The notes under the pieces were generated by a model. It was not told the origin of the DNA, ran no database searches, and saw only the letters and a program-made list of their open reading frames with translations. DNA of 27,983 nucleotides, taken from positions 1-27,983 of IMG/VR virus record IMGVR_UViG_3300028840_001224. One strand, written 5' to 3'. Positions 7,415 to 27,983 of the stretch are shown in pieces. The position numbers and the translations under genes are program-made. How positions within the stretch are numbered: the stretch's first letter is position 1; each line of letters starts with the position of its first letter. The DNA comes from a virus.

Positions 7415-7415
7415 A

Positions 7416-7490
7416 TGGAGCCCCTGCCGGGAATCGAACCCAGACTGACTGCTTACCAAGCAGTTGTGCTTCCGTTATCACTACAAGGGC
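7416..7490 (-). tRNA. tRNA-Thr (anticodon GGT)
   Basis: Acceptor GCCCTTG/CAGGGGC, normal D-arm (GTGA/GCAC), anticodon stem CTGC/GCAG with loop TTGGTAA, discriminator T and encoded CCA. Unlike the other two Thr tRNAs it has a normal D-loop. Confidence 0.94.
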
Positions 7491-7492
7491 AT

Positions 7493-7581
7493 TGGTGGAG
7501 CAGGAGGGATTCGAACTCTCAAGTGTCCTTGGGACTCCGGGGTTACAGCCCGGTGCCGGCACCAGTTCCGGCGTCTGCTCC
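7493..7581 (-). tRNA. tRNA-Tyr (anticodon GTA)
   Basis: Acceptor GGAGCAG/CTGCTCC, anticodon stem CCGGG/CCCGG with loop CTGTAAC, long class II variable arm, T-loop TTCGAAT, discriminator A and encoded CCA. Total 89 bases. Confidence 0.95.
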
Positions 7582-7582
7582 A

Positions 7583-7657
7583 TGGAGCGGTCGGCGGGAC
7601 TCGAACCCGCACCACAAGGCTTGGAAGGCCCGCTGCTGCCAGTTACACCACGACCGC
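7583..7657 (-). tRNA. tRNA-Gly (anticodon TCC)
   Basis: Acceptor GCGGTCG/CGACCGC, anticodon loop CTTCCAA, T-stem GCGGG/CCCGC, discriminator T and encoded CCA. It is the only glycine tRNA in the window. Confidence 0.95.
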
Positions 7658-7732
7658 TCGCGGGGGCATTGCGCCCCCGTTACGTCTTTGAACGAACCAG
7701 GTTGTCAAAGACCACGCGGCATCTATGGCCGA
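7658..7732 (-). other. 75-base spacer with two hairpins, no gene seen
   Basis: A G+C hairpin CGGGGGC-ATTGC-GCCCCCG (7661-7679) is followed by TCTTTGA/TCAAAGA (7685-7711) with the 13-base loop ACGAACCAGGTTG. The same loop occurs, inverted, at the far end of the array (3765-3777). Candidate structured RNA, attenuator or processing element between tRNA-Trp and tRNA-Gly. Confidence 0.4.
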
Positions 7733-7806
7733 TGGCGGGCTCGCCAGGATTCGAACCTGGGTCTTCGGTTTTGGAGACCGAAATGCTTCCGCTACACCAC
7801 GAACCC
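7733..7806 (-). tRNA. tRNA-Trp (anticodon CCA)
   Basis: Acceptor GGGTTCG/CGAGCCC, anticodon stem TCGGT/ACCGA with loop CTCCAAA, T-loop TTCGAAT, discriminator G and encoded CCA. It is the first tRNA of the leftward array, following the 64-residue gene. Confidence 0.96.
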
Positions 7807-15688: not shown

Positions 15689-15879
15689 CAATTCCTCCAG
15701 TCGATCTGGTTGCACCTCAGGCAAATCCTGAAGTCGTAAACCCTGCCGTACTTTATAGCAGGGTCACTGGACACGAGAGGTCTGTAGGTGGCGCTCCACC
15801 TATGTCCATCTGATTTGCAGTTCCTCCCAGTCCTCTGGTGCTCGTGAAACCTCTTCGCTAGGTTCCCGGAGTTCCTCAC
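15688..15879 (-). CDS. Small zinc-type hypothetical protein, start uncertain, about 63 aa
   Basis: The 3' end is secure: the TGA overlaps the RecT ATG (TGATG) and the tail YDFRICLRCNQIDWRN carries a CxxC knuckle, with CKSDGHRW upstream as a likely partner. The 5' end is not: no in-frame ATG has a ribosome site. A GTG at 15879 follows GAGGAGG too closely, and the frame overlaps the upstream gene by 80 bases. A shorter product from a non-standard start near GGGAGG at about 15830 is possible. Function unknown. Confidence 0.45.
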   Translation of the reverse strand: MRNSGNLAKRFHEHQRTGRNCKSDGHRWSATYRPLVSSDPAIKYGRVYDFRICLRCNQIDWRN

Positions 15880-16078
15880 CCTCCTCGTTGCTCCCGGAGC
15901 CCGGTACGAGGATGAAGGTCTCATACTCGAAGGCCGTGGCAACAATCTCTCCCTTCTCGTCCATCACGTACCAGGAGTGGACGGTATGCCCCTGTGGGCA
16001 TTCCAGAACCTCACCTTGTGACCCATCTCTCGAAGTGATCTCATCTAGGTGTCTACGGCACGCACGGTAGTAGCTCAT
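15800..16078 (-). CDS. Small zinc-type hypothetical protein, 92 aa
   Basis: The start is ATG 16078, with no strong Shine-Dalgarno. The first half has CRRH and CPQGHTVHSW (Cys/His pairs spaced for one zinc), then strand sequence with MDEKGEIVATAFEYETFILV. The second half is acidic and low-complexity (SNEEGEELREPSEEVSRAPE). No family recognised. It lies between the nuclease and RecT genes and may accompany the recombination module. Confidence 0.6.
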   Translation of the reverse strand: MSYYRACRRHLDEITSRDGSQGEVLECPQGHTVHSWYVMDEKGEIVATAFEYETFILVPGSGSNEEGEELREPSEEVSRAPEDWEELQIRWT

Positions 16079-16097
16079 GTGAGCACCATGAGGGCGA

Positions 16098-16964
16098 TCA
16101 CTTCCCCCTCCTTCGGACGTACTCGCACGTCCCGTCGTTGAACTCGCACCATCCGCACGGGGAGCCTGGGACACCCTCAGCAGCAGGCACGAACACGCCG
16201 GCCTCGACGGCACGCACGGCGTTGCGGATCCGCTCGACCATGCGCTTCAGGTCATCGATGCTGCGCGTCGTCTCCTGCACGTTGACGGTCATCTCGTGGG
16301 CCTTCGGCGTGCGGACCAGCGTGACCAGGCGGGAGCCCTTGGGTGAGTGGCCCACGTCCTTGTGCCGGATGAGCGTGTAGAGGGTCAACTGCTGAGAGGT
16401 CTCTGCTTCATCCTTGAACGGTGCCTTCTCCTTGGTCTTCAGGTCTCGGATGTACTCGTTCCCCTCCTCGTCCTCCACCAGGTCAAGGTAGCCGGTGAGC
16501 GTGATGTCCAGATCCTTCGGCTCCACAATGACCTTCCGCTCCACCGCCGTTGGGATAATTGGTGGGGCTACGTCACCTACGTACAGCGCGGAGAAGTCGG
16601 TGGCTGCGTCCTTGTTGTGCGCGTAGATGGCGTCCTTCTCCTTCAACTCCTCCTTGGAGAGGTGTACCTCGTTGCCCTTCCAGAGCCTGTCGAACTCTGT
16701 CGCGGCCAGGTCCCTGGCCTCCTGAAGGGACTTCCCGGAGCCCGGTAGCTCCTCGCACTTCGGGATTTCTCTGTCCTCCTCCCATGTCCCAAGCTCCACC
16801 ATCTGTCGCTTGTGGGTTTCCTTCGCAACGAAGTGTGCGGCGCGGCCACGGGCTGCGGCCACGCCGCTGGGTCGGTAGTCCTTCTTGATGTGCTTGAGAT
16901 AGAACTTGTGACCGCACACTCCGACAGTTGTGAGACTGGAGTTACTCCAGCGCCTGAAGCTCAT
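16098..16964 (-). CDS. PD-(D/E)XK nuclease with Fe-S cluster motif (RecB/Cas4-like), 288 aa
   Basis: The nuclease core is visible: ARGRAAHFVAKETH (38-51), LTGYLDLV (156-163) with Asp161, then YIRDLKTKEKAP with Asp174 and Lys176, and Gln191 in TSQQLTLYT, matching the RecB/Cas4-type GxxD...DxK...QxxxY order. Cys17 (VCGHKFYLKHI) and the C-terminal trio Cys270, Cys273 and Cys280 (CGWCEFNDGTC) fit the four-Cys iron-sulfur cluster of AddB/Cas4 nucleases. It probably resects DNA ends for the RecT-like protein in the same operon. The start overlaps the previous stop (ATGA) with GGAGGG upstream. Confidence 0.87.
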   Translation of the reverse strand: MSFRRWSNSSLTTVGVCGHKFYLKHIKKDYRPSGVAAARGRAAHFVAKETHKRQMVELGTWEEDREIPKCEELPGSGKSLQEARDLAATEFDRLWKGNEVHLSKEELKEKDAIYAHNKDAATDFSALYVGDVAPPIIPTAVERKVIVEPKDLDITLTGYLDLVEDEEGNEYIRDLKTKEKAPFKDEAETSQQLTLYTLIRHKDVGHSPKGSRLVTLVRTPKAHEMTVNVQETTRSIDDLKRMVERIRNAVRAVEAGVFVPAAEGVPGSPCGWCEFNDGTCEYVRRRGK

Positions 16965-17242
16965 CGTCCCTCCGCGTCGTACTTGCGTGCCTCATCAGCC
17001 AGGGCCCGAACCAGACGTGCGGCCCAGAGAGGCACTAGGACCCTTCCGGCCTCCCATCTGTACACCTGGTAGTTCTTCACTTCGGCTCCCGTGTTGGGGT
17101 CGATCATCTGTTCGGCCAGTTGCTTCTGAGAACAGCGTATGACGTTCTGTCTCAGATGTCTCATGTCCTCTGGAGTCATGAACGAGCGACGAGGGGGGCG
17201 AAGGCTAGGCTTTCGCATGACGACGATTGGGTCGTCTACCAT
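16961..17242 (-). CDS. XRE-type helix-turn-helix regulator, 93 aa
   Basis: GGGAGG precedes ATG 17242. The region MRHLRQNVIRCSQKQLAEQM ... VKNYQVYRWEAGRVLVPLWA is a Cro/CI-type helix-turn-helix, with SQKQLAEQM as the first helix and NYQVYRWEAG as the recognition helix. The insertion DPNTGAEVK in the turn is slightly long. Such proteins bind operators as dimers. Being in the recombination operon, it may autoregulate this block or act as a phage early repressor. Its target is not identifiable. Confidence 0.78.
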   Translation of the reverse strand: MVDDPIVVMRKPSLRPPRRSFMTPEDMRHLRQNVIRCSQKQLAEQMIDPNTGAEVKNYQVYRWEAGRVLVPLWAARLVRALADEARKYDAEGR

Positions 17243-17393
17243 GCTGACCTCCCTTCCTGTAGCACCGATGACAGAGCCATTGCTTGCCGTTCCAGGCGTA
17301 GAGCCCGTCATCCCTACAGTCGTTACAGCCCTCGCACCCGAGGCACAGCGGTCGTACCTCGGGTGCGGGGGGCGTGAAGTGCTCTCTGGGCAC
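17205..17393 (-). CDS. Small Cys-cluster protein, 62 aa
   Basis: A GTG at 17393 shares a base with the upstream TAG (TAGTG). The core CLGCEGCNDCRDDGLYAWNG followed by QWLCHRCYRKGG gives six to seven Cys in CxxC spacing, typical of a two-zinc ribbon. It ends in an Arg/His-rich tail and overlaps the regulator gene by 38 bases. Function unknown; probably nucleic-acid or protein binding. Confidence 0.6.
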   Translation of the reverse strand: MPREHFTPPAPEVRPLCLGCEGCNDCRDDGLYAWNGKQWLCHRCYRKGGQHGRRPNRRHAKA

Positions 17394-17638
17394 TAGTCGA
17401 GGTCCAGGGCCGAGAGAAGCAGTGTGACATCCTGTGTCTCCACCAGCTTCATCGCGGGCCTGGTCTCATTGACTGACGGTGTCTCGAAGTGAGCAGTGCC
17501 ATTCTTCATCATCAGGCGAACGCAGAGGATGTAGTCGTCAAGGCCCCTGAACGGATCGCCCTTGGACTCCTTTCTTCCGCGTACGTACTCACCAGCGAGG
17601 TTGAGTCGCTCCTCTGTGGAGACCTCTGGATCCTTCAT
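17393..17638 (-). CDS. Hypothetical protein, 81 aa
   Basis: AGGAGGCTAG gives a strong ribosome site before ATG 17638. The protein is soluble and mixed alpha/beta, with no Cys cluster beyond one residue and no recognisable motif; the end is Leu-rich (VTLLLSALDLD). It lies between the lipoprotein gene and the Cys-cluster gene and is coupled to the latter by TAGTG. Function unknown. Confidence 0.65.
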   Translation of the reverse strand: MKDPEVSTEERLNLAGEYVRGRKESKGDPFRGLDDYILCVRLMMKNGTAHFETPSVNETRPAMKLVETQDVTLLLSALDLD

Positions 17639-17646
17639 CTAGCCTC

Positions 17647-18831
17647 CTACCGATTGTTGCATCGCGGATCGGACTGCCCAGGCGTCAACTGAAACTGCCT
17701 GAACGTGTCCGAGTAGATGCCAGGAACTGTGAAGCGGCAGTGATCGGATGGCGGACCATCCGGCCAGCGTCCCCACTGCCCGAAGGCGAGCGGGTTGCCG
17801 CCGAGCTTGAGCCGGCACGTCGCCTCCTTGATGCGACCGCTCACGTTGTAGAAGCAGTACCCCTCGGCATACGGGCACTCGACCTCGCACTTCTCGGTGA
17901 GCACCCTCTCCTCGCGCTTTGCCTCACGTCGCTCCTTGGTGCAGGACGAGGTCTCGTACCAGACCAGGATGTCGGTGCGAGTGCGCTCACCGTAGCAAAG
18001 CTCTGGCGCCGGGGTGTGGGTCGATGCCGTCACGCCTGCGAACGCTGCGAATGCGCTCTCATCGAACGGCTCCTCTGGAGCGACGCACTCGGACCACTTG
18101 CCTTCGATGATCTCGGGTTCCTGCTCCATGCGCCACTCATCGACGCACGGGCACTCGCAGCGCTCGTACTCGGGGCGCGTCTCGGTGGTGGTCCAGGTCT
18201 TGTCGCACTGCTTCCAGTGGGTGATGAACTCGACCTCTCGGCTCTTGGAGCACTGAGGAACGTCGGTGCTCGCTTCGGCCTCCGGTCGAGACTCCTCGCA
18301 CTCACCCCAGTCGCCCTCCTCGCCACGCTCGACCTTGACGATCTCGGCCTCCTCCTCGCACTCGGCGCACTCGGGGGCCGGCGGAAGCGGATCGAGGATG
18401 CGAGCCGCGATGGGGCTCAGGCCGTGCGGAGTCGGCGGACAGGTCTTGGCGTCGATGATGTCTAGCTGTGGCTTCTGCTCCTCGCACGTCTCGTTCTCGT
18501 ACTCCATCGGAGTGCGGCCCGCCTTCACGAGCCACTGGTCCGCGAGCTTGCCCTCACCGTACGGGGCGTCGAACAGGCACGCTGTGTAGGTCGTACCGGA
18601 GTTGTTCACGACTGTCCCGTCGCCCTTGATCTTGATGTCGATGTTCGTTGGCTCGGCTGGGGTGACTGCCGGGGTTGTGGTGTCCGATGGGCTCACCGTC
18701 CCAGGCTGAGACGTTGCGTCTCCTGGTAGGGACGGCCCCGTTGGGCTCGACTTGCTGTTACAGGACAGCATGAACGACATGGAGATCCCCACGATGAACG
18801 CGAGGATCAAGACGGCGTAAGTCTTTCTCAT
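17647..18831 (-). CDS. Cysteine-rich surface lipoprotein, 394 aa
   Basis: AGGAG precedes ATG 18831. Residues 1-23 (KTYAVLILAFIVGISMSFML) form a signal peptide ending in lipobox MLSC, so Cys is lipidated and the protein anchored outside the cytoplasmic membrane. A Ser/Thr/Pro linker follows. The mature part has about 20 further Cys, an even number consistent with disulfides, in repeated W-x-x-C and CxxR blocks (GDWGECEE, HWKQCDKTW, GKWSECVAPEE, CYGERTRTD) reminiscent of thrombospondin type 1 repeats. No enzyme motif. A phage lipoprotein like this could alter the infected cell surface, for instance by blocking superinfection (inference). Confidence 0.75.
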   Translation of the reverse strand: MRKTYAVLILAFIVGISMSFMLSCNSKSSPTGPSLPGDATSQPGTVSPSDTTTPAVTPAEPTNIDIKIKGDGTVVNNSGTTYTACLFDAPYGEGKLADQWLVKAGRTPMEYENETCEEQKPQLDIIDAKTCPPTPHGLSPIAARILDPLPPAPECAECEEEAEIVKVERGEEGDWGECEESRPEAEASTDVPQCSKSREVEFITHWKQCDKTWTTTETRPEYERCECPCVDEWRMEQEPEIIEGKWSECVAPEEPFDESAFAAFAGVTASTHTPAPELCYGERTRTDILVWYETSSCTKERREAKREERVLTEKCEVECPYAEGYCFYNVSGRIKEATCRLKLGGNPLAFGQWGRWPDGPPSDHCRFTVPGIYSDTFRQFQLTPGQSDPRCNNR

Positions 18832-18839
18832 CTTCTCTC

Positions 18840-19094
18840 CTAAGCCCACCCTTCGATGGACTCCGCAACTTCCGGGTGGCCACTGTCGCGGAGTGCCCCC
18901 AGCGCCTCGGCAAGCTTCTGCCTGTAGAGTTCCAGTTCGGCGTTCGAGACTCTGAGCTTGCGGTCTAGGCAGGAGACGACTTCCCCGAGGTCGATTGGCT
19001 GCGTCTTTTCGAGAGCCTCTCGGATCTTCAACCTCGTGATCATCTCCGGTTCCTCCGAAGTGTAGGGCTCGACTTCATCAACGGGAGTGAACAT
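18840..19094 (-). CDS. Hypothetical acidic helical protein, 84 aa
   Basis: AAGGAGGTACA is one of the strongest ribosome sites in the window and fixes ATG 19094. The product starts with an acidic segment (MFTPVDEVEPYTSEEPE) and continues as amphipathic helix (LRVSNAELELYRQKLAEALG). No family recognised. It ends eight bases before the lipoprotein ATG and follows the hairpin at 19127-19158, so it may begin a new transcript. Confidence 0.65.
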   Translation of the reverse strand: MFTPVDEVEPYTSEEPEMITRLKIREALEKTQPIDLGEVVSCLDRKLRVSNAELELYRQKLAEALGALRDSGHPEVAESIEGWA

Positions 19095-19126
19095 TGTACC
19101 TCCTTATCGGTTTGGGGAAGGTGGGC

Positions 19127-19158
19127 TCGCCCCCAGCGGAGGGAGTAGCTGGGGGCGA
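19127..19158 (-). terminator. Candidate terminator hairpin after the AIPR gene
   Basis: A perfect 11-bp inverted repeat TCGCCCCCAGC / GCTGGGGGCGA with a 10-base loop begins eight bases after the AIPR stop codon. No long U-run follows, so it may need a factor or serve as an RNA-stability element. Confidence 0.5.
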
Positions 19159-19166
19159 ACCGGGTA

Positions 19167-20288
19167 CTAACGGCTGAGCTTGAGTACGGCCTTCTCCACG
19201 GCGCTGTAGCAGGCGTTGTACGTCGAGGAGAGACGGGCCACCCTGTCGGGGACACCGTCACAGTCGGCGTGAGCCAGCTTGAGCGTCTCGTAGATCTCTG
19301 GGATGGCAGTCTCGATCAGCTTCTCGTTCGAGACCTCCCAGACCGGAGCGCCACCGTTCCAGACCAGGTTGGCCCGGAAGGCGGCGAGGGACGGGAGGAT
19401 CCATGCTTCGGAGATCTTCCCGCGAACCCTCTCACCGGAGAAGAACTGCTCGTACTTCCGGCGGAGGTTCATGTAGAAACCGGGCTTGCGGCCTGGGCTA
19501 AGGAACTCGGCCTCGATGCGGTCGCGCAGGAGGAGGATGTCCTTGGCCAAGGTGATGAGGACCGGGAGAGAGTCACCCGGCTGTGGGCTAGCCGCCTGGT
19601 CCGCGAAGAACCGCACGGCGTTGTTCTTCCGACCGTAGAGCGGGGTGGGGTGCTGGTGGCCGTGGTACTGCGTGCAGTCGAACACGGCGAGGTACTGGAG
19701 AATCACCCGCACGTCGATGGGCTTCTTCTCGTTCATCTTGTACGCCACCAGGCCGGCGTAGGGAGTGTCAGCGATCTCTGCCTTCAGAGCGTCGAAGCTC
19801 CCCTTGAGGTTCTCCAGGCTCTTGAGGTCCACCTGCTGACTCGTGTTGAGTCCGCCAGCGATCTCCACGATCTGGTCCTCATTCACGCCCGTCACCGCAT
19901 GGATGAGGACGTAGGCCTTGCGGCTCAGGACTTCCTTCTCGAAGGAGAGGATGGCGTCGAGGGTGTGAGCCCCGTCGATCACGCCGTGGATCGAGGGGTT
20001 GGTGAGTTCGAGGATGACCTCCTTGCGACGGGAGTCGTACGACATCCCGAGTGCGGCGATGGTGATCCCACGGTTGCGTTCGTGGAACTGCTCGGGGACC
20101 TCGTCCAAAGAGCCCACGATGTCCCGATAGACGGCTGTGTTGCGACTGATCTCGCGAGGGTTCACGTCACGCCAGTCCATCAATTCGCCTGGTACGGACG
20201 TGGCCTCTACGAAGAAGAACCCGTCCTTCTTCGAACCGGACGGGCTGGGGATGGCCCGGAATTGGGCCGAGGGGAAACGGAATTGCAT
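19167..20288 (-). CDS. AIPR-family protein (abortive-infection phage-resistance type), 373 aa
   Basis: The AIPR pattern is visible: the HERNRGITIAA strand (69-79), the signature GVIDGAHTLDAI (102-113), the Asn/Gln segment GGLNTSQQVDLKSLENL (145-161), then a long helical C-terminal half. The family name comes from a plasmid-borne phage-resistance gene; its biochemistry is poorly defined. AAAGGA lies before ATG 20288. The gene is flanked on both sides by G+C hairpins, unlike its tightly coupled neighbours, so it may be a self-contained cassette. In a phage it could serve as superinfection exclusion or counter-defence (inference). Confidence 0.78.
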   Translation of the reverse strand: MQFRFPSAQFRAIPSPSGSKKDGFFFVEATSVPGELMDWRDVNPREISRNTAVYRDIVGSLDEVPEQFHERNRGITIAALGMSYDSRRKEVILELTNPSIHGVIDGAHTLDAILSFEKEVLSRKAYVLIHAVTGVNEDQIVEIAGGLNTSQQVDLKSLENLKGSFDALKAEIADTPYAGLVAYKMNEKKPIDVRVILQYLAVFDCTQYHGHQHPTPLYGRKNNAVRFFADQAASPQPGDSLPVLITLAKDILLLRDRIEAEFLSPGRKPGFYMNLRRKYEQFFSGERVRGKISEAWILPSLAAFRANLVWNGGAPVWEVSNEKLIETAIPEIYETLKLAHADCDGVPDRVARLSSTYNACYSAVEKAVLKLSR

Positions 20289-20328
20289 ATACGTCCTTTC
20301 TGCCGCATGGAAGCGGCGGTTGAAAGGC

Positions 20329-20348
20329 GGGGGGGCCCAATGCCCCCC
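20329..20348 (-). terminator. Candidate terminator hairpin before the AIPR gene
   Basis: On the minus strand a GGGGGGC / GCCCCCC stem with an ATTGG loop lies 12 bases after the stop of the 168-residue gene and is followed by CGCCTTTC. A similar GGGGGCATTG-GCCCCC hairpin occurs at 7661-7679. Confidence 0.5.
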
Positions 20349-20360
20349 ACGCCCGGTACG

Positions 20361-20867
20361 TCAGTTGATCGACTTGCGAACGTTGTCGATGATCTCCATG
20401 CTGGACTTCTTGGGCGGATCGACGTTGAGTGAGGACCCGAGGGAGTAGATCGACTGCACCATCATCTGGTGGACGAGAGGTTCACCGATCTGCTCCTTCG
20501 CCTGGTACTTGAGCATGGCGACCATGATGAGGAACAGCCCCACGCGGTCCATGATGGGGATCTCCTTCGCTGTCGCCGTCTCCTGGTTGGGGAGACTCTC
20601 GAAGATCCTGGCCATCGCCCCGTAGAAGACACCAGAGACCGGATCGGTCTCCTTCTTCGAGACCTCGTGAAGGGCCTCGATGGCCGTCTTCAGAGTCGGC
20701 TTCGGAGGGTTGATCATGGCCTGGAGCATCTCCTTGACCTTGGAGCCGTCTCCCCCGCAGCCCTCGCAGTTGGGATCACCGCAGCCTCCGATCTCCTCTG
20801 CGGCCTTGTCGAGTTGGTCTTCGAGGGAGGACATCCCTCCCTTCCCGTCGATGATGAGCACCTTCAT
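20361..20867 (-). CDS. Hypothetical protein with Cys motif, 168 aa
   Basis: GAGGAGGCGTAGAC precedes ATG 20867. The N-terminus (MKVLIIDGKGGMSSLEDQLD) is followed by a Gly/Cys-rich insert CGDPNCEGCGGDGSK that could hold a metal, then helical sequence with a hydrophobic stretch (RVGLFLIMVAMLKYQ) that is probably buried helix rather than membrane. No family recognised. It follows the DUF3150-like gene by two bases and precedes the hairpin and AIPR gene, so it is probably the last gene of that transcript. Confidence 0.65.
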   Translation of the reverse strand: MKVLIIDGKGGMSSLEDQLDKAAEEIGGCGDPNCEGCGGDGSKVKEMLQAMINPPKPTLKTAIEALHEVSKKETDPVSGVFYGAMARIFESLPNQETATAKEIPIMDRVGLFLIMVAMLKYQAKEQIGEPLVHQMMVQSIYSLGSSLNVDPPKKSSMEIIDNVRKSIN

Positions 20868-20869
20868 GT

Positions 20870-21766
20870 CTACGCCTCCTCTCGAAGGTTGATCTTGCGC
20901 TTCGGCTTCTGCATGACGAGCGAGTCCAGAGTCTGGGCCACCCGCTTGAAGCCCTCGTGAACGTCCTGTCGGAGCGAGTCGCTCTTGCGGAGGTCATCCG
21001 GCTGGACACCCTCCGTGAGCTTCCGCATCCGCTCCACCTGTGACTGGAGTTCCTCGCTGGAGCCCACGTCGCGGAGCTTGAAGTTCGCCAGGAACTCGGT
21101 GATGTTCGACACCATGGAGTTGCGGAAGATCTTCGGCTTCCCGTCCTCGTCCGGCGTCAGGCGGTCCACCATGTGGTCCGCCAGGCCCTTGGCTTCCAGC
21201 GTGAGCATGTTCGTGATCTCGTGAACGGCCTCCTGGAGGGCCTCCTCCTGCTTCTCGCGCTCCCGCTCGAAGAACTGGACGCTGATCTTCTTGAGGCTGT
21301 CCGGCGTGCTCATTGTGAGCCACTTCCAGTCGATGCGGTAGAGAGCGTTGATCTGCTCTGCGGTCGGGTAGAGGCCGGGGTTGAATGCGGACCCGAGGCG
21401 GGCGCGGCTCTCCTCCTTCCGCTCGTCTGCCACGGCGGCGAAGGCCTCGACCAGGGGCCGGAAGTCCTCACGCGCCTTGAAGAGGAGAGCGTCGATCTCT
21501 TCGACGGCCTCCACCTTGACCATGTACATCCCGCCCTTCAGGAAGGACGGCACGGTCTTGGATCGCACCGCCAGCTTCAAGCTGGTGAGGAAGCGCCGGC
21601 ACGCCTTGAGTTCGGGCGCGTCGTACAGGTCGATGCCGACGTGCAGCATGTCCCGGTCGATCTCGGTCTTGATCGCCTCGGTGGACGAGGACAGCTTCCG
21701 GCGGTTGCTCACCTGGCCCAGCGTGAGGGCCAGCACGACGGTGTTCTCCGACAGGTTCTGTGTCAT
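20870..21766 (-). CDS. Hypothetical phage protein, possibly DUF3150 family, 298 aa
   Basis: AAGGAGATGGAG gives a clear ribosome site for ATG 21766, which shares a base with the upstream TAA (TAATG). The N-terminal segment (VVLALTLGQVSNRRKLSS) and the alternating helical body with DLYDAPELKACRRFLTSLK resemble DUF3150-type proteins, which in other phages neighbour AAA+ ATPases; I hold that at moderate confidence. The C-terminus MQKPKRKINLREEA repeats the tail seen at 4460-4483 and 8030-8746, and its last codons supply a Shine-Dalgarno for the next gene. Probably soluble and helical. Confidence 0.7.
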   Translation of the reverse strand: MTQNLSENTVVLALTLGQVSNRRKLSSSTEAIKTEIDRDMLHVGIDLYDAPELKACRRFLTSLKLAVRSKTVPSFLKGGMYMVKVEAVEEIDALLFKAREDFRPLVEAFAAVADERKEESRARLGSAFNPGLYPTAEQINALYRIDWKWLTMSTPDSLKKISVQFFEREREKQEEALQEAVHEITNMLTLEAKGLADHMVDRLTPDEDGKPKIFRNSMVSNITEFLANFKLRDVGSSEELQSQVERMRKLTEGVQPDDLRKSDSLRQDVHEGFKRVAQTLDSLVMQKPKRKINLREEA

Positions 21767-21915
21767 TACTCCATCTCCTTCAACGCGGCCTGAAGCCGCT
21801 CCAGACGGGACTGCTCGGACTCCTGGCCCTCGGGGGCCACGTAGCCCTTGGCGATGCGACGCTCGCACTTCTCGATGCGCTTCTTGATGATGTCTGCCGG
21901 GGTCTTCTTCTTCAT
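21766..21915 (-). CDS. Small charged helical protein, 49 aa
   Basis: ATG 21915 follows GGAGAGATAG, and the TAA overlaps the next ATG (TAATG), so the reading frame is well bounded. The sequence is Lys/Arg/Glu-rich (KKKTPADIIKKRIEKCERRI) with a helical end (SRLERLQAALKEME). No family recognised. Likely an accessory or regulatory peptide coupled to the 298-residue protein. Confidence 0.6.
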   Translation of the reverse strand: MKKKTPADIIKKRIEKCERRIAKGYVAPEGQESEQSRLERLQAALKEME

Positions 21916-22176
21916 CTATCTCTCCGAAGGGGTTGGAACGTCGTTGGACTTGAGCCACGCCACCTCTGCGGCGAGGGCTTCCTTGCGAGTGGTGAACGGA
22001 CCAAGAAGGGGACCTTTGACCGGAGACAGGTCTGCGGCCCACTCCCCATCCGGTGCCGGCTCGACGTGCGAGGCGCGGCGGACTGTCACTGTCCCGAGGG
22101 GCTTGACGAGAGCGACGAGGTCATCGTCGTAGATGAGTCTGAGGTCTCCGCTCTCGTTGAAGATGATGGTGCTCAC
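21916..22176 (-). CDS. Hypothetical protein, 86 aa
   Basis: A GTG at 22176 overlaps the DUF2997 stop (GTGA). The product begins with STIIFNESGDLRLIYDDDLV and has a later GPFTTRKEALAAEVAWL helix; the phrase GPF-x-T-x-x-EA-x-x-AE resembles small phage proteins that fold as strand-strand-helix. No known function. It is co-translated with DUF2997. Confidence 0.65.
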   Translation of the reverse strand: MSTIIFNESGDLRLIYDDDLVALVKPLGTVTVRRASHVEPAPDGEWAADLSPVKGPLLGPFTTRKEALAAEVAWLKSNDVPTPSER

Positions 22177-22355
22177 TGGGTCACCAATGCCTTCCTGGCG
22201 GTGCCCTTCATCTCGGGCTTGTCCTCCCGCTTGAACGTCTTCCCGATGGCTTCCTCGATGGCGCGGGTGGCGTCGAGGCACTCTCTCCCGGAGAACCCGG
22301 AGGCCTCGACCTTGGTCTGTCCCTGGCCGTCTACGATGATCGTGATCTTCTTCAC
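22173..22355 (-). CDS. DUF2997 family protein, 60 aa
   Basis: A GTG at 22355 overlaps the upstream TGA (GTGA) with GGAGG six bases before it. The sequence KKITIIVDGQGQTKVEASGF followed by SGRECLDATRAIEEAIGK fits DUF2997: a beta-hairpin, then Gly-Phe-x-Gly-x-x-Cys-Leu-x-Ala and a helix ending in a Lys-containing tail. In cyanobacteria such genes neighbour Ycf35 (DUF1257) and Ycf46, and both have counterparts nearby here. The single conserved Cys suggests metal or redox chemistry. Function unknown. Confidence 0.75.
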   Translation of the reverse strand: MKKITIIVDGQGQTKVEASGFSGRECLDATRAIEEAIGKTFKREDKPEMKGTARKALVTQ

Positions 22356-22699
22356 TTCTTCCTCCACTTGAGGGCTGGGTACATCCCCTCCTCCTTCTTG
22401 ATCTGCCCCTTGAGCCACTTGTACCTGGCCCCACGGCTCCCGGTCCACTCGGGCCAGATGTAGTCGTCCGCGAGGGTGTACCCTGGCCCCTTCCTGCGCC
22501 GGCCCTCGTCCCGAAGGAGCTTCCTGATTCTGTCTGTCATGTTCCGCGAGGCGTAGGGGATCTCGATGTGCCCGTAGTAGCTGCCGCCCCTGTCTCCGTC
22601 TATGTCGTCTAGGGCTGAGCAGAGCCCTCCCACGTAGCCCCGACTGACTGCCTCGGCTAGGAACTCCAGCACCTCCAGCTTGGTTGCGTACTTGCTCAT
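22352..22699 (-). CDS. Hypothetical protein, 115 aa
   Basis: GGGAGAGAG precedes ATG 22699, which overlaps the preceding TGA (ATGA). The first third is helical (KLEVLEFLAEAVSRG), and the rest is basic and aromatic (WPEWTGSRGARYKWLKGQIK). No motif recognised. It is coupled to DUF2997 downstream by GTGA. Confidence 0.6.
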   Translation of the reverse strand: MSKYATKLEVLEFLAEAVSRGYVGGLCSALDDIDGDRGGSYYGHIEIPYASRNMTDRIRKLLRDEGRRRKGPGYTLADDYIWPEWTGSRGARYKWLKGQIKKEEGMYPALKWRKK

Positions 22700-22860
22700 G
22701 ACTCTCTCTCCCTCCGAAGCTCCTCCTTCAGGAACTCGATGGTTGACTCGATCAGTAAGTGGTCCTTCCTCTCCTGCTCGGTCTGTTCTGGGTTCGTGGC
22801 CAAGCTCTTCAGTTCGGCGCGAACATGGTTGCTCGTGATCTTCCTGGGCTCGCTGCTCAT
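22696..22860 (-). CDS. Small helical protein, 54 aa
   Basis: AGGAGG eight bases upstream supports ATG 22860, which overlaps the previous TGA; its own TGA overlaps the next ATG. The sequence is charged and helical (NPEQTEQERKDHLLIESTIE, FLKEELRRERES). No family recognised. The coupled junctions on both sides argue that it is real. Confidence 0.6.
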   Translation of the reverse strand: MSSEPRKITSNHVRAELKSLATNPEQTEQERKDHLLIESTIEFLKEELRRERES

Positions 22861-23057
22861 CCCCTTAGCCTCCTGAAGAGCCAGCCGAGACAGACGACCG
22901 GCCAGAAGAGAGACAGGATGATCAGGATGACGTGCCCCGCCGTGTTACTGACCTCGGGGGCCTTCGACGGAGGGGACGTGCTCTCCAGCGTCCAGGCCAT
23001 TGCGATCACGCCGGCCAGGTACGCCACGACTTCGATGCCTACCAGTGTCTCGATCAT
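22857..23057 (-). CDS. Small membrane protein with two predicted helices, 66 aa
   Basis: ATG 23057 overlaps the DUF1257 stop (ATGA). Two hydrophobic segments, VGIEVVAYLAGVIAMAW (7-23) and AGHVILIILSLFWPVVCLGW (40-59), flank a polar loop and end in RRLRG, predicting a hairpin membrane protein with the C-terminus inside. Function unknown; holin-like size, but no lysis genes are nearby. Confidence 0.65.
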   Translation of the reverse strand: MIETLVGIEVVAYLAGVIAMAWTLESTSPPSKAPEVSNTAGHVILIILSLFWPVVCLGWLFRRLRG

Positions 23058-23437
23058 CGGACCATCACCTCCAGTTCCACCTGGTTGTCCTTGCGAGGAA
23101 CCTCGCGGACGTTGTAGCCACGAATGCGAGCCATCCGCTTCGCAGCCTCGACAGCGTACGCCTGGGAGAACTTCCCTCCGTTATGCCCGATGAAGGGGGT
23201 GAGTCCACCCGAGGCCCAGGCGTCGAAGTTCAGCGAGTACGTGCCGTCCTTCTGCTTGATCAGGCCCACCGAGTATCTCGCGCCAGGGAACTCGATCATT
23301 GCGTCGCACGAGGACTTCCCTTCGTACCAGGTGTACTTCTTCACGTTCTCGTGCAGGACGCCACCCAGCCGCTTCGCCGCGTTCTTCGCGTCACGAAGAC
23401 TCTTGATCACTACCTTCGCCGTCGCGATGTGGCTCAC
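23054..23437 (-). CDS. DUF1257 / Ycf35-family protein, 127 aa
   Basis: GTG 23437 has GGGAGG six bases upstream. The opening MSHIATAKVVIKSLRDAKNA matches the MSH-x-x-x-x-x-T-x-I-x-D/R start of the Ycf35/DUF1257 family. So does the central YSVGLIKQKDGTYSLNFDAW strand pair and the later helix FSQAYAVEAAKRMARIRGY. Ycf35 is a conserved plastid and cyanobacterial protein of unknown biochemistry that occurs with Ycf46 and DUF2997. Here all three are within 3.2 kb and in one operon, suggesting a conserved functional unit. Confidence 0.8.
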   Translation of the reverse strand: MSHIATAKVVIKSLRDAKNAAKRLGGVLHENVKKYTWYEGKSSCDAMIEFPGARYSVGLIKQKDGTYSLNFDAWASGGLTPFIGHNGGKFSQAYAVEAAKRMARIRGYNVREVPRKDNQVELEVMVR

Positions 23438-23679
23438 GCGGCACCTCCCTTGTCCCAGAAATACGGATTGTCATCGAGCATGAGGCGACGCCTCGAACGT
23501 CTGATACACCTACGGACAGCCGCCTCATCCACGTCTGTACACGGTCTGTAGACCTGTGGACTCTCCTCTGTCTCACGTAGTCCAACTTCGACCCCCTCCC
23601 AGAATGCGTCGTACCAGCCCCCCAGGACCCCTGAGATCAGCTTCAGGAGCCCCAGGGCTACGACCAGCCTCCAGAACAT
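23434..23679 (-). CDS. Small membrane-anchored protein, 81 aa
   Basis: ATG 23679 directly follows the AAA+ stop, and its TGA overlaps the DUF1257 GTG (GTGA). The N-terminus is hydrophobic (FWRLVVALGLLKLISGVLGG), predicting a membrane anchor or uncleaved signal. The rest is charged with two Cys and an Arg-rich end (VRRCIRRSRRRLMLDD). Being between the ATPase and DUF1257, it may anchor the complex to the membrane (inference). Confidence 0.6.
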   Translation of the reverse strand: MFWRLVVALGLLKLISGVLGGWYDAFWEGVEVGLRETEESPQVYRPCTDVDEAAVRRCIRRSRRRLMLDDNPYFWDKGGAA

Positions 23680-25263
23680 CTAGTTCGCTCCCTTCAGAGC
23701 AAGCTTGCGACCGCTGGACTTCTTGGGCTTGAAGTCGCAGGCCTTGCTCATCTCGTAGGTGCCGGGGTAGGAGGCGGAGAGGAACGTGCCGTCTGCCTGC
23801 TTCCGAAGGGACCGAACGGAGTCCGGTGCGCTCTTCGTGACAGGGACGATGTAGCTCTCGCCCACTTCCTTCACCGGCTTGTTGAGCTTGTATGCGATCT
23901 CGCACGCGTTGCGGATCTCGGCTCCCGTCCACCCGGTGTCATCCGGGAGGGGAGAGTCGAGGGGATGCCCGTACTTCTTCAGGTACACGGGCCACAGGCT
24001 GGAACGCTCCTCGTCAGTGAGGAGGTCGAAGTACCAGATCTGGAGCTTGAAGCGACGAAGAAGCTCAGGAGGAAGCACGTCGAGCTTGTTGCAAGTGGCC
24101 AGGACGAGGACGTTCTTGCCACCGATGCTCTTGATGGTGCGGAAGGCCTCGCGGAATGCCTGCTCGGACTCCCCGACGTGCTTGCCCTTCATGGACCCGG
24201 TGTCCATCACGATGGTAGGCACGTTGTGGTGCGCTCCGATGGACTCGGTGAGCACCGTCTTGCCGGACCCTCGGATGCCCACCAGGATGGCTCCGTTCCA
24301 CTCGTTGCCTTCCATGTTGGTGAGGAACTGCTCGTGGAGATCCTGGGTGACTCCGGTGTTGTCCCCCGCACCGCCACCGGAGCCGAGTCCTGCGAGAGCC
24401 TTGTCGATCTCATCGATGCGAACGACAAGCTCCGGGGGTTCTGGCCCAGCCCAGAGATCGTTGAGCATCCCGGTGACCTGGTCGAGGCCACGGAGATCCT
24501 TGAGGTCCGGGCCGTCGAGGGTCATGGTGAGACCCTTGACCTTGCTCACCGCCTTCTGCTTGAGGTCCCAGGCGTGCGCGAGGTCGATCTCGCCGGCATC
24601 CGGGTTGAGCGCAAGGGACATGGCGAGCACCTGTTCCGCCTCGAAAGCGGAGAGCCCACGCACGCTGCGCGTGACCTTCTTCAGGTACTCGTCATCGGGC
24701 TTCGACAGGTCAGCCGAGTCATGTAGCTCACGAACGATGGTGGCGTAGCCCTCGTGCTCCGGGAGGGGATCGTCCAGCAGGATCACATCGTGGACGATCT
24801 CATCCGGGAAGGTGAAGTCAGGAGAGAGCATGATGAGCATATTCCCCTGCGCCTTGAACGTGTCCCTGGTATTGAGCACCAACTGGACGAGTTCGTTCTG
24901 GACCTGAGAGTCATGCAGGAAGCGGTTGAAGCTGTGAGCGATGAGCACAACCTCCTTCTCTGCCTGGCCCTCGACCTGGCCCAGCTTCGATGCCGTGCGG
25001 ATGGCGGCGACGGGATCGGACGTGGCTGTCTTGATCTCGTCGGCGTCCATGTCCAGCGAGTCCGCCAGTTCCTGGAGCACGACCTCGGCGGTCTTGTTGA
25101 GGGCCATGTAGCCGTTGCCCCGGTCCCAGGAAACGACCGGGAGGCCACCGTTGAGGCTCTCCGCGATGGTCTGCGCGAGGGCCGGCTGGTCCGGCGTAGT
25201 GACCGCGATCAGCGGCGTGGAGACGCGCTTCGCAGCCTTCAAGGAATCAATCAGGGACTTCAT
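23680..25263 (-). CDS. Ycf46-like AAA+ ATPase with permuted motif order, 527 aa
   Basis: The N-terminal half follows Ycf46: LIAVTTPDQ (18-26), VVSWDRGNG (43-51), AHSFNRFLHD (109-118), IMLSPDFTFPDEI (144-156), DPLPEHE (165-171), RGLSAFEAEQ (202-211). The AAA+ core is out of order: Walker-B-like ELVVRIDEIDKA (278-289) plus the following helix (307-318) comes first, then Walker A GIRGSGKT (329-336), VMDTGSM, VGESE (363-367), then sensor 1 LATCN (388-392), LPPELLRRF (397-405) and GWTGAEIRNA (444-453). In ordinary AAA+ proteins Walker B lies between VGESE and sensor 1. AAGGAGGACAG fixes the start. It is probably an oligomeric ATPase working with the nearby DUF1257 and DUF2997 proteins. Confidence 0.88.
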   Translation of the reverse strand: MKSLIDSLKAAKRVSTPLIAVTTPDQPALAQTIAESLNGGLPVVSWDRGNGYMALNKTAEVVLQELADSLDMDADEIKTATSDPVAAIRTASKLGQVEGQAEKEVVLIAHSFNRFLHDSQVQNELVQLVLNTRDTFKAQGNMLIMLSPDFTFPDEIVHDVILLDDPLPEHEGYATIVRELHDSADLSKPDDEYLKKVTRSVRGLSAFEAEQVLAMSLALNPDAGEIDLAHAWDLKQKAVSKVKGLTMTLDGPDLKDLRGLDQVTGMLNDLWAGPEPPELVVRIDEIDKALAGLGSGGGAGDNTGVTQDLHEQFLTNMEGNEWNGAILVGIRGSGKTVLTESIGAHHNVPTIVMDTGSMKGKHVGESEQAFREAFRTIKSIGGKNVLVLATCNKLDVLPPELLRRFKLQIWYFDLLTDEERSSLWPVYLKKYGHPLDSPLPDDTGWTGAEIRNACEIAYKLNKPVKEVGESYIVPVTKSAPDSVRSLRKQADGTFLSASYPGTYEMSKACDFKPKKSSGRKLALKGAN

Positions 25264-25272
25264 CTGTCCTCC

Positions 25273-25662
25273 TTACTCCTGGCCGTAGACGATGCGGTTC
25301 ACGCACTCGTTCGCCTCGACCTCTGTCCAGCAACCAGGCCTGCCGTACTTCTCCTTGCAGCCGCCAAGGTGGCAGACCTCGTGGCCGGCGAGTTCGTTCA
25401 GGTAGCTGAACGACCCATCGTGGATCGTCTGCCTGTGTGCGTTCACAACGTTCCCACCAGGCGTAGCCCATGCGGCCATCCAGCCGCCGTTCGGATTCTC
25501 GTGGAACTCCACGTAGCAGGGGCCATGCTCCAGCACGCCGCAGTAGTGCTCGACCTTGGCGATGAAGAACGCTTCCTGCTCGTTCACGGGATCGGGGGAT
25601 GAGAACTCGGCGTGGCCGCACCCAATCCCCCAGAGTGCGAGCGCCGCGATCAGGATCCGCAT
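25273..25662 (-). CDS. Lipoprotein with HExxH zinc-metallopeptidase motif, 129 aa
   Basis: ATG 25662 shares a base with the upstream TGA (TGATG). Residues 1-15 (MRILIAALALWGIGC) are a signal peptide with a lipobox, so the mature N-terminus is Cys15. The mature protein carries LAGHEVCHLGG (91-101): His94, Glu95 and His98 form an HExxH zinc site, with Glu114, Glu116 or Glu119 as candidates for the third ligand. Six further Cys may form disulfides. The domain is small for a metallopeptidase, so an inactive or minimal version is possible. It is predicted to act in the periplasm or at the cell surface. Confidence 0.72.
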   Translation of the reverse strand: MRILIAALALWGIGCGHAEFSSPDPVNEQEAFFIAKVEHYCGVLEHGPCYVEFHENPNGGWMAAWATPGGNVVNAHRQTIHDGSFSYLNELAGHEVCHLGGCKEKYGRPGCWTEVEANECVNRIVYGQE

Positions 25663-26051
25663 CAGTGAAACTCCGTTGGGGACACAGACTCGCCACCCTC
25701 GCAGGGGAAGTGGCGGATCAGCATGGCCGAGGTGATGAGGCGGACGGCCCCAGGCTTGTTCCACATCTCTGGGAACTCGTTCGCTATGTTGATCCACATC
25801 CGGGCGAGTTGCCCGTTGGTCTCGCTGGTCAGACCCTGGTAGCACTTCATGGTCACGAACATCCCGTCATCGACTCCACGGATGTAGCCGAGGGCGTAGC
25901 CGTAGTGGATAGCCTCCCATCCACTCGGCCCATCCTGCTCCAGGGCGCGGATCATGCCCTGGACGCTGTTCATCGGCATGGGCGGGGGCTCACCGGCGGT
26001 TGCGATTGCTCCCGCCAGGCAGAGAGTCACGGCGATCAATGCTTTCTTCAT
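25662..26051 (-). CDS. Exported Rap1a/Tai-like protein, 129 aa
   Basis: The start ATG follows the previous TAG directly. Residues 1-19 (MKKALIAVTLCLAGAIATA) are a Sec signal. The mature part matches the Rap1a/Tai immunity-protein pattern: YALGYIRGVDDG (52-63), a first Cys (70), a Gln-containing helix (QLARMWINIANEFPEMW) and the ending AMLIRHFPC (109-117) with a second Cys. In Serratia and others such periplasmic proteins neutralise peptidoglycan-cutting T6SS effectors. A phage copy could protect the cell during infection or control a phage lysin. It is coupled to the HExxH lipoprotein downstream. Confidence 0.7.
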   Translation of the reverse strand: MKKALIAVTLCLAGAIATAGEPPPMPMNSVQGMIRALEQDGPSGWEAIHYGYALGYIRGVDDGMFVTMKCYQGLTSETNGQLARMWINIANEFPEMWNKPGAVRLITSAMLIRHFPCEGGESVSPTEFH

Positions 26052-26216
26052 CTACTCGTCTCCTTCTTCGTTGTACTGGTTGAGGCACTTCTTGTTGCAG
26101 ACCCAGGCCTCGTAGGGCTCCCCCTTGGTAGCGACGAGGAAGCCTAGATAGATTGCGCTCCTGGAGTTGGTGCGGATCGTCTTGCGGCAGTGGTAGCAGG
26201 CCCGCTTAGAAGTCAA
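26052..26216 (-). CDS. Small treble-clef-like zinc protein, 54 aa
   Basis: A TTG at 26216 sits six bases after AGGAGG and is the best start; a GTG two codons earlier abuts the ribosome site. The product has CYHC near its start and CNKKC near its end, a CxxC...CxxxC pattern of treble-clef zinc fingers, around a strand-rich middle (SAIYLGFLVATKG). It overlaps the upstream gene by 11 bases. Function unknown. Confidence 0.6.
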   Translation of the reverse strand: MTSKRACYHCRKTIRTNSRSAIYLGFLVATKGEPYEAWVCNKKCLNQYNEEGDE

Positions 26217-26397
26217 CGTCACCCTCCTGCATCGGGTAGAACTCGACGCTCTCAAACTCTGGGCGTGGGGGAGTGAAGAGGTCCCGTAGGATCCGCTCCT
26301 GGAGCGCGTCCTCGTGGAGATCGTCAATGATCTCCCGAAGCGCGGCCTGATCGGTGAGACTCTTCGAGTGCTTGAGGTCCATGAGGTACTGGTTCAT
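26206..26397 (-). CDS. Hypothetical acidic protein, 63 aa
   Basis: GGAGGGTTGAT precedes ATG 26397. The protein is acidic and mostly helical (DQAALREIIDDLHEDALQER) with an acidic C-terminus (QEGDVDF) whose codons contain AGGAGG, the ribosome site for the next gene. No family recognised. Confidence 0.62.
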   Translation of the reverse strand: MNQYLMDLKHSKSLTDQAALREIIDDLHEDALQERILRDLFTPPRPEFESVEFYPMQEGDVDF

Positions 26398-26432
26398 ATC
26401 AACCCTCCACTAGAGAGACGCGCCAGCCGTTG

Positions 26433-26849
26433 CTATCTGACACGCTCCAGGTAGCCACCGTAGTAGCCGTTGCTGGAGTTGCGGTACTCGACCTTGATGG
26501 ACTCCCCGTTGTTGAGGCGCAGGATGGTCTGGTAGGACTGGAGGTAGTCCCCCATGTCCTCCTCACCGTCCCATCCGTGCTCCATGCGCTGATCCTCGAC
26601 GGCCAGAACCTCCAGCCCCTCGACGGTGTCGGGAGCTTCGAGGTGCTCGAACCAGGAGTGGGAGCAGCAGTCTCCCTCGGCGGTGAACTCGGCCTTGCCC
26701 CCATCCTCGAACTCGAACACGAGGACGGTCTTGTCGTCACGCAGGGACACGGCCTTGAGCTTGCGGTTGGCGAAGTCTTGCCAGTCGCCCCCGAAGTCGC
26801 CAGTCAGCCTCATAAGGTTCCTCGCGAACCCCTCGTCGTACTCTTCCAT
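26433..26849 (-). CDS. Hypothetical phage protein, possibly DUF7448-like, 138 aa
   Basis: ATG 26849 shares its last base with the upstream stop (TGATG), and AAGGAGGAG lies upstream. The core pattern is beta-rich: LKAVSLRDDKTVLVFEFEDG, then AEGDCCSHSWFEHLE, then EVLAVEDQ and ILRLNNGESIKVEYRNS. The CCS-x-SWFEH motif is characteristic of a small group of phage hypotheticals that I associate, with moderate confidence, with DUF7448. It may bind metal through the Cys pair. Function unknown. Confidence 0.68.
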   Translation of the reverse strand: MEEYDEGFARNLMRLTGDFGGDWQDFANRKLKAVSLRDDKTVLVFEFEDGGKAEFTAEGDCCSHSWFEHLEAPDTVEGLEVLAVEDQRMEHGWDGEEDMGDYLQSYQTILRLNNGESIKVEYRNSSNGYYGGYLERVR

Positions 26850-27001
26850 CACTCCTCCTTCAGCGTGACCTTGAGGAAGGTCTCCGCCTGGTCGAACGTC
26901 TTGTTCCTCTTCTTGGGGTCTACGTCCCACGATGCGCGGTGCGTCACGATCTCGATGCCGTCATCGTTGGTGACCTCGACTGTGATCTTCACCCGCTTCA
27001 T
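26849..27001 (-). CDS. Small hypothetical protein, 50 aa
   Basis: ATG 27001 overlaps the previous stop (ATGA) and GGAGG lies upstream. The sequence MKRVKITVEVTNDDGIEIVT predicts a beta-hairpin followed by a short basic helix, and ends in VTLKEE, whose codons carry the ribosome site of the next gene. No family recognised. Confidence 0.6.
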   Translation of the reverse strand: MKRVKITVEVTNDDGIEIVTHRASWDVDPKKRNKTFDQAETFLKVTLKEE

Positions 27002-27219
27002 GGGTCCTCCTTCGTCTTCGCAATGTCCAGGATGCTCGGCTGCGGGTCGATCTCCTGTAGCACGCGCAGCGCAGCCTGAGTCTTCGAGGCGTGGATCCAC
27101 TTCTTCTCCGGCCAGGCCCCGGTCATGGCGCGGAACGCTCTCACGTCATCCGCGATCCGCTTGCGCCACCGCTTGTAGCGACGCCTCTCCTCTGGGGTTG
27201 TCGTCTCTGCGTACCTCAT
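26998..27219 (-). CDS. Small basic protein, 73 aa
   Basis: AGGAGG six bases upstream favours ATG 27219 over an in-frame ATG at 27234. The N-terminal half is very basic (PEERRRYKRWRKRIADDVRA) and helical, followed by GAWPEKKWIHASKTQAALRV. It may bind nucleic acid by charge alone. No family recognised. Confidence 0.6.
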   Translation of the reverse strand: MRYAETTTPEERRRYKRWRKRIADDVRAFRAMTGAWPEKKWIHASKTQAALRVLQEIDPQPSILDIAKTKEDP

Positions 27220-27230
27220 GTCTGGCCTCC

Positions 27231-27554
27231 TCACGCCGTGAACGAGAGGTCTGAAATGAGCCGAAGGGACTCGCTCCCGTCGTACTCCTCGATGATGAAG
27301 GCGGTCCCCTTGTCGAGCCAGTGGACCTCCACCTGGTCGAGGCCACCCGAGTAGGGGTACTCCTCACCGAACCAGGCCTTAAGGTCATCCTCGGTGACCT
27401 CCTCGTTGGCGAGAACCTTCTCGACCAAGCGGCTGTCGAACATGGCCTGCTCCTGGTGCTCGCGGCCGGCCCAGGTGCTCCAGCCCGCGCCGAATCCGGG
27501 GGACACCAGTACGGCCACCTGATCACCTCGCTCGTACTTCTTCCACTCGCTCAT
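27231..27554 (-). CDS. Hypothetical acidic protein, 107 aa
   Basis: The start ATG directly follows the preceding TAG. The product has a strand-rich N-terminus (DQVAVLVSPGFGAGWSTWAG), an acidic helix (EKVLANEEVTEDDLKAWFGE) and a second strand pair (VEVHWLDKGTAFIIEEYDG), indicating a compact alpha/beta domain. No motif or family recognised; similar small acidic proteins are frequent at the start of phage early operons. Confidence 0.65.
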   Translation of the reverse strand: MSEWKKYERGDQVAVLVSPGFGAGWSTWAGREHQEQAMFDSRLVEKVLANEEVTEDDLKAWFGEEYPYSGGLDQVEVHWLDKGTAFIIEEYDGSESLRLISDLSFTA

Positions 27555-27764
27555 CTAGTCCTCCCACCACTCCCACTCGTCGTAGTCGTCAAGCTCAGGG
27601 ATGTACTCTGGGTATCCCTCTCGGTCTACGCCTTCCGCCTGGAGCGCGGCTTCCACGTCTCTGCGCTCGTTCCTGGCCTTCCCACGAGGCGCACGGCGGT
27701 CCTTCATGGCCTTGCCCTTGCCCCGCAGGGCGAGAGCGTAGGCGACGGGGTTGCGTCCCTTCAT
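27555..27764 (-). CDS. Small phage protein, first gene of the leftward operon, 69 aa
   Basis: AGGAGGCGCAACC precedes ATG 27764, so the longer upstream extension of this frame is not needed. The N-terminus is basic (KGRNPVAYALALRGKGKAMK, then DRRAPRGKARNERRD) and the C-terminus acidic and aromatic (DDYDEWEWWED). The opening RNPVA-x-AL is common in small hypothetical phage proteins. Being promoter-proximal, it would be expressed first. Function unknown. Confidence 0.65.
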   Translation of the reverse strand: MKGRNPVAYALALRGKGKAMKDRRAPRGKARNERRDVEAALQAEGVDREGYPEYIPELDDYDEWEWWED

Positions 27765-27983
27765 GGTTGCGCCTCCTGGAGCGGCGGACGGGAGCCGCTG
27801 ATATAACCCCCGCCCGCCAAGTTCCTGCCAACTATCAGCTATCGGGGCGTGACGCGTTGAGGGTGCCCCAAGTCCCTCGCTCCGGTGCCTGTGTGTTTCA
27901 GTTGGCTTTACGTCACCAACGCATCGATTCACCTCCCGCGTTGAGTTGAATGCAGAGTAGTAGAGGCCACCCTCAAGTGAGAG
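27765..27983 (-). promoter_or_regulatory. Upstream region of the long leftward operon
   Basis: These 219 bases hold no convincing gene. On the minus strand a TTATAT (27801-27806) 36 bases before the first ATG could be a -10 box; the nearest -35-like TTGGCA (27827-27832) is 20 bases away, longer than usual. A 9-base inverted repeat TTGAGGGTG (27857-27865) / CACCCTCAA (27968-27976) and a second GCGTTGAG copy suggest operator-like sites. The promoter call is tentative. Confidence 0.35.

Follow-up and report, generated by a model that had tools for sequence, protein, structure and literature searches.

AAA+ proteins rank with the most abundant molecular machines. Their clades are told apart by insertions into a chain order that is itself fixed, beta1 (Walker A)-alpha1-beta2-alpha2-beta3 (Walker B)-alpha3-beta4 (sensor 1). 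Ycf46-type ATPases, such as Synechocystis Slr0374, Pseudanabaena WP_281009472 and the AAA-ATPase of Corndog-type mycobacteriophages, consist of a degenerate AAA-like N domain and a classical AAA domain. Ycf46 is a chloroplast and cyanobacterial protein, and to our knowledge no biochemical role has been assigned to the cellular versions of its gene module, which are conserved among cyanobacteria and plastids. In Synechocystis, Ycf46 (slr0374), itself of unclear biochemistry, is a member of a stress-induced operon (PMC7496141), and Ycf35 and DUF2997 are neighbours (PMC4284462). Here we describe a gene from a soil phage, located on the 27,983-nucleotide stretch IMGVR_UViG_3300028840_001224 (positions 1 to 27,983 of the IMG/VR record; hereafter the window). 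Its product shares the two-part architecture and the motifs of the Ycf46-type proteins, with significant block-wise homology. These proteins have the canonical order, whereas in the window protein and its clade beta3-alpha3 stands before beta1, without a linker preceding beta1. We consider it highly probable (roughly 0.86) that this is a working, topologically permuted Ycf46-like AAA+ ATPase in which fold and active site are kept.

The gene occupies a single open frame on the minus strand, from an ATG at 25263 to a stop ending at 23680, and encodes 527 amino acids. The Walker B stretch reads ELVVRIDEIDKA (residues 278–289) and is followed by FLTNMEG (313–319) in the alpha3 helix. After alpha3 come ILVGIRGSGKT (326–336), VMDTGSM (352–358), VGESE (363–367), NVLVLATCN (384–392) and LPPELLRRF (397–405). 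Residues 367–384, the usual place of Walker B in AAA+ proteins between VGESE and sensor 1, read EQAFREAFRTIKSIGGKN; no second Walker B was found there, and a motif scan of the whole protein gave only one. In the helical lid, GWTGAEI (444–450) represents the GxxGAE/D region of classical AAA proteins. The protein thus carries a Walker A with its lysine, a Walker B of the hhhhDE type, a sensor 1 asparagine with an arginine finger, and a helical lid, while its beta3-alpha3 precedes beta1 in the chain. The N-terminal AAA-like domain is homologous to that of Ycf46 by its profile matches, and the motif order departs from the canonical one of a Ycf46-like protein (P0007). The permuted clade clearly descends from Ycf46-like AAA ATPases, yet it lacks the chain order that defines the fold. 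The first-pass annotation had already read Walker B ahead of Walker A in a continuous frame free of frameshift artefacts, proposed that beta3-alpha3 had moved ahead of beta1, and named a canonical Walker B between residues 367 and 384 as evidence to the contrary. All seven motifs it quoted lie at the residue numbers given, the frame is continuous, and the transposition is supported by block-wise homology to two profiles, conservation, phylogeny, predicted secondary structure and the same order across the clade.

The blocks were delimited with a canonical profile hidden Markov model (HMM), A5, built from 18 phage relatives with the ordinary motif order. A5 matched the window protein in four non-overlapping blocks: profile positions 6–183 on residues 92–265, 266–303 on 280–319, 205–263 on 323–381 and 307–439 on 384–501. 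A second, independent profile from the canonical sister clade gave the block order 11–225, 299–333, 236–295, 339–456, with almost no profile positions lost between blocks (225 to 236, 295 to 299, 333 to 339). The N-terminal part is unpermuted, as residues 92–265 (A5) and 16–264 (sister profile) were matched by the canonical profiles. When the order was restored, purely as an in-script alignment device, the best single-domain A5 score rose from 52.8 to 182.6 bits; restoration raised the score in all 25 aligned family members, by 142 bits on average. Furthermore, scoring 10,660 adjacent-segment swaps in an exhaustive grid with free breakpoints placed the optimum at 281 / 321 / 386 with A5 (188.9 bits) and at 276 / 321 / 381 with the sister-clade profile (from 79.6 to 245.7 bits). 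With both profiles, the top swaps were those that give back the canonical order (breakpoints 276–281 / 321 / 381–386), and reciprocal gaps were directly visible in BLASTP against a canonical relative. By homology, the rearrangement reads as a reciprocal swap of two neighbouring core blocks in a Ycf46-like AAA+ protein. Because of these swapped blocks, annotation tools recover only domain fragments; in PHROGs, phrog_8638 matched the protein in broken pieces, and no family spanning the permuted order was found.

The permuted order was observed well beyond the window, although the window itself was drawn from a metagenome virus record, where a frame artefact or a chimera from assembly or binning might mimic a permutation. 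We give this explanation practically no weight. In addition to the single open frame, a contig of another dataset shows the same order at 60% identity, and the order recurs in a sequenced isolate, Tunturiibacter phage Tunturi_3 (gp103), in 26 loci from one IMG/VR scan and in at least 64 from a second. Merged by hand count, the two scan lists comprise at least 77 distinct contigs from many datasets, without exception to the order. Positions 15683–27983 of the window (12,301 bases) match IMG/VR contig 3300017971_000019 (92,489 bases) without a mismatch; the two probably stem from the same virus, the window being a fragment of the phage on that contig. The pairwise ratio of nonsynonymous to synonymous substitution rates among permuted proteins is approximately 0.08–0.40, well under 1, with the higher values coming from pairs of high synonymous divergence; the permuted ATPases are under purifying selection. 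For the clade, the independent assemblies and the isolate rule out a frameshift or chimera. Full-length matches to the permuted family, with the permuted order confirmed by inspection, were also present in 3 of 297 Acidobacteriota genomes, one of which has a Walker B reading VLVDEGEK (locus L076), and a separate scan of genome contigs gave at least one permuted locus. The homologues of the same order that the annotation had proposed to look for therefore exist in phages, an isolate and bacterial genomes. Among canonical-order loci, Walker A came first in 31/31 from the first IMG/VR scan and in 16/16 of the matches listed from the second, and none of the permuted-clade loci listed in either scan had the canonical order. 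Two loci (L166, L167) were flagged as mixed owing to an extra chance GxxGxxK match ahead of Walker B. A scan seeded with the Tunturi_3 protein alone returned no relative.

An AlphaFold2 model of the permuted ATPase, run with 25 permuted sequences, reached a predicted local distance difference test score (pLDDT) of 88.8 and a predicted template modelling score (pTM) of 0.82, compared with 83.6 and 0.71 for a canonical relative. The elements of the permuted model (beta3 279–283, alpha3 305–319, beta1 323–329, alpha1 335–345, beta2 350–353, alpha2 365–381, beta4 385–391) each have a single counterpart of similar length, permuted in order, in the canonical model (beta1 269–274, alpha1 280–290, beta2 295–298, alpha2 310–325, beta3 328–332, alpha3 353–365, beta4 370–376). 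The alpha3-beta1 and alpha2-beta4 linkers are three residues each, as short as the canonical ones. The strands of the AAA+ sheet lie in space as beta5-beta1-beta4-beta3-beta2 (PMC5039278). In the model, alpha3 is predicted to enter beta1 rather than its neighbour beta4, alpha2 to enter beta4 rather than its neighbour beta3, and the N-terminal helix to enter beta3. By analogy with this sheet, the rewired joints at the entries to beta3, beta1 and beta4 would all be short loops on the sheet edge opposite the nucleotide. The active site is most likely kept because these joints face away from ATP: the chain would run beta3-alpha3-beta1-alpha1-beta2-alpha2-beta4-alpha4-beta5 in place of beta1 to beta5, and Walker A, Walker B, sensor 1 and the arginine fingers would come together as usual, with Walker A and Walker B presumably adjacent in the folded protein. 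The displaced block is now attached to the N-terminal domain and AAA+ proteins assemble as rings, so that beta3-alpha3 might instead complete a neighbouring subunit's active site, a three-dimensional domain swap in which the permutation would enforce oligomerisation. We regard this as improbable, as an alpha3-beta1 linker of only three residues (319 to 323) favours packing within one chain and the single-chain model is already confident.

Trees were computed on re-ordered sequences. A 100/100 branch set all permuted proteins apart, with 27 rows in one analysis and 25 in another. When Ycf46-like proteins of bacteria and cyanobacteria were included, the permuted clade grouped with a canonical clade (P6; a Manganitrophus plasmid and phage contigs) on one side of a 100/99 branch. 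The branch into the permuted clade was long (1.3). The swap was likely a single derived event in mobile elements, one swap being the simplest history because all surrounding lineages are canonical. As a proposal, it could have arisen through an in-frame tandem duplication of beta1-alpha3, followed by complementary loss of one copy of each half.

Conservation was compared between 25 diverged permuted proteins and 34 canonical rows. K335, D284, E285, K288, T390, N392, R403, R404 and D413 are invariant in all 25 permuted proteins, Walker A residue 336 is S or T in all 25, and G447 of the lid motif is kept in 24. Because the catalytic residues are invariant over such diverged proteins, most permuted members are likely active ATPases, and the window protein would hydrolyse ATP, probably as a ring. 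Several observations nevertheless count against a permuted, working ATPase. The last Walker A glycine, present in 34/34 canonical rows, is replaced by Ala in 10/25 permuted proteins and by Ser in 1/25 (GxxGxAKS in loci such as L009, L011, L014, L016, L017, L019, L022 and L023), and members with such a Walker A may handle nucleotides differently. Position 362 of pore-loop 1 is mostly Leu or His, the aromatic residue usually being absent. Together, the 11/25 substitutions and the pore loop could indicate a degenerate, non-hydrolysing AAA-like scaffold with the swapped block out of catalysis. We judge this unlikely, given the invariance of the Walker B DE, the Walker A K and S/T, the sensor 1 N and both arginines. 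The GxxGxAKS form recalls MCM helicases, which likewise carry Ala in Walker A. The sequential aligner Foldseek aligned the whole chain of the model to two-ring AAA proteins, with p97/Cdc48 and Rix7/NVL, double-ring ATPases with tandem AAA domains of canonical topology, as the best solved-structure matches (best E 7.9e-14). The template modelling scores were only 0.29–0.47 among the matches listed, versus up to 0.64 for the canonical control, which was also stronger in significance (best E 3.0e-24); a weak sequential superposition is expected for a permutation, yet it is no proof of one. Finally, no duplication intermediate was found in the scanned loci, including the 64 permuted loci listed in the second scan, and for this reason the duplication route stays a proposal.

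Despite these points, a permuted and working ATPase remains the preferred reading. We are evenly divided on a broader view, in which this AAA+ lineage is catalytically active, has evolved naturally with its core permuted, arose once in mobile elements, and may link ATP hydrolysis to its N domain or partners in a manner unlike all known AAA+ machines. The coupling could differ because the N-terminal domain now leads into the Walker B strand and no longer into beta1. A common motor fold is apparently rewirable in nature, with dozens of related phages carrying the intact swap. A clade that keeps every catalytic residue despite the swap would show that the AAA+ chain order is not obligatory, and would provide a natural experiment on which of the connections transmit allosteric signals.

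The ATPase gene, its domains and motifs, and the neighbouring genes are listed in Table 1.

Table 1. Window positions of the permuted ATPase, its domains and motifs, and the neighbouring partner genes.
Feature	Position	Strand	Evidence
Permuted Ycf46-like AAA+ ATPase (P0001), putative	23680..25263	-	527 amino acids; Pfam AAA PF00004, 1.2e-13
N-terminal degenerate AAA-like domain and start of the segment into the core, residues 1–260, unpermuted	24484..25263	-	Profile, model, Foldseek
Displaced block, residues 278–319: beta3 (279–283) with Walker B (VVRIDE 280–285), and alpha3	24307..24432	-	Matches canonical profile 266–303
Block, residues 323–381: beta1, Walker A, alpha1, beta2, VGESE, alpha2	24121..24297	-	Matches canonical profile 205–263
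Walker A GIRGSGKT, residues 329–336	24256..24279	-	Motif reading
Sensor 1 (NVLVLATCN 384–392) and arginine-finger region (LPPELLRRF 397–405)	24049..24114	-	Invariant T390, N392, R403, R404
Helical lid, residues 417–490; contains GWTGAEI (the sensor-2 region in classical AAA proteins)	23794..24015	-	Model and conservation
DUF1257 (Ycf35)-like partner, 127 amino acids	23054..23437	-	Family HMM; window copy alone without Pfam match
DUF2997 partner, ~60 amino acids	22173..22355	-	PF11211, 1.2e-12
DUF3150-family helical partner, 298 amino acids	20870..21766	-	Family homology; window copy alone without Pfam match

Pfam DUF1257 was matched by 5 of 11 aligned members of the DUF1257-like family (best 1.3e-8), and PF11348 (DUF3150) by 8 of 19 aligned members of the DUF3150-like family (best 2.7e-21). 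A DUF3150-family gene lies near the permuted ATPase in all 28 loci examined, and DUF1257 and DUF2997 genes were each observed in 12 of them, the flanks often being incomplete. The ATPase of the sister clade (100/99), represented by WDT73634 on the Ca. Manganitrophus plasmid CP114554 and by IMG/VR loci L092–L117, has the same partner genes: AAA, DUF1257, DUF2997 and DUF3150 are consecutive on the plasmid, with the ATPase in canonical order, and the phage loci carry DUF1257 in 25/26 and DUF3150 in 18/26. Walker A precedes Walker B in 25/25 of the loci with both motifs readable. Since the same partners stand beside the canonical sister clade, the permuted ATPase appears to replace the canonical one within an existing gene module. 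Ycf46-type and permuted ATPases alike are found with Ycf35/DUF1257 and DUF2997. The permuted protein would act together with the products of the adjacent DUF1257, DUF2997 and DUF3150 genes, possibly as a ring ATPase that remodels a protein or nucleoprotein substrate. Attention is thereby drawn to a little-studied mobile module of a Ycf46-like ATPase with DUF1257/Ycf35, DUF2997 and DUF3150; no paper on DUF3150 was found in the open-access literature. In an Acidobacteriota contig (G294:C3, 388,610 bases; loci L086/L089), a permuted ATPase (L086:11238-12740) and a DUF3150 gene were located approximately 15–30 kb from TraC/TraG-like and coupling-protein genes, which suggests conjugative elements as a further vehicle of the permuted module in Acidobacteriota.

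Permuted motifs have been described in other P-loop NTPases. The circularly permuted GTPases RsgA/YjeQ, RbgA/YlqF and YqeH show the motif order G4-G5-G1-G2-G3 (PMC6912228), in agreement with the first-pass annotation, which had mentioned permuted P-loops in YjeQ/YlqF-type GTPases. These proteins belong to the TRAFAC class and not to ASCE/AAA+, and their whole domain is circularly permuted, whereas the window clade exhibits an internal two-block swap flanked by an unpermuted N domain and by beta4-beta5-lid. Identity with a circularly permuted GTPase was rejected, as Pfam above cut-off gives AAA only and no GTPase family. The annotation had known of no AAA+ subfamily with such a permutation, and within the open-access literature we likewise found no description of a permuted AAA+ domain, P-loop or Walker order.

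Other genes of the window were also recorded. The family AIPR is named for abortive-infection phage resistance, and an AIPR-family protein (window 19167-20288, minus strand; PF10592, 2.8e-20) is phage-encoded beside the ATPase module. Upstream of the ATPase gene, a small protein (window 25665-26051, minus strand) gave a weak Rap1a-immunity match below the cut-off (PF18602, 1.9e-4). IetA of the IetAS defence system was considered for the ATPase and rejected; the PADLOC matches were weak and partial (1.5e-4, residues 383–457), and a Pfam scan of ten flanking open reading frames found no peptidase, whereas IetA has the subtilisin-like protease IetS beside it. Additionally, 32 tRNA genes lie on the minus strand at window 882-7806, most of them between 3659 and 7806, forming an unusually large array for a phage.
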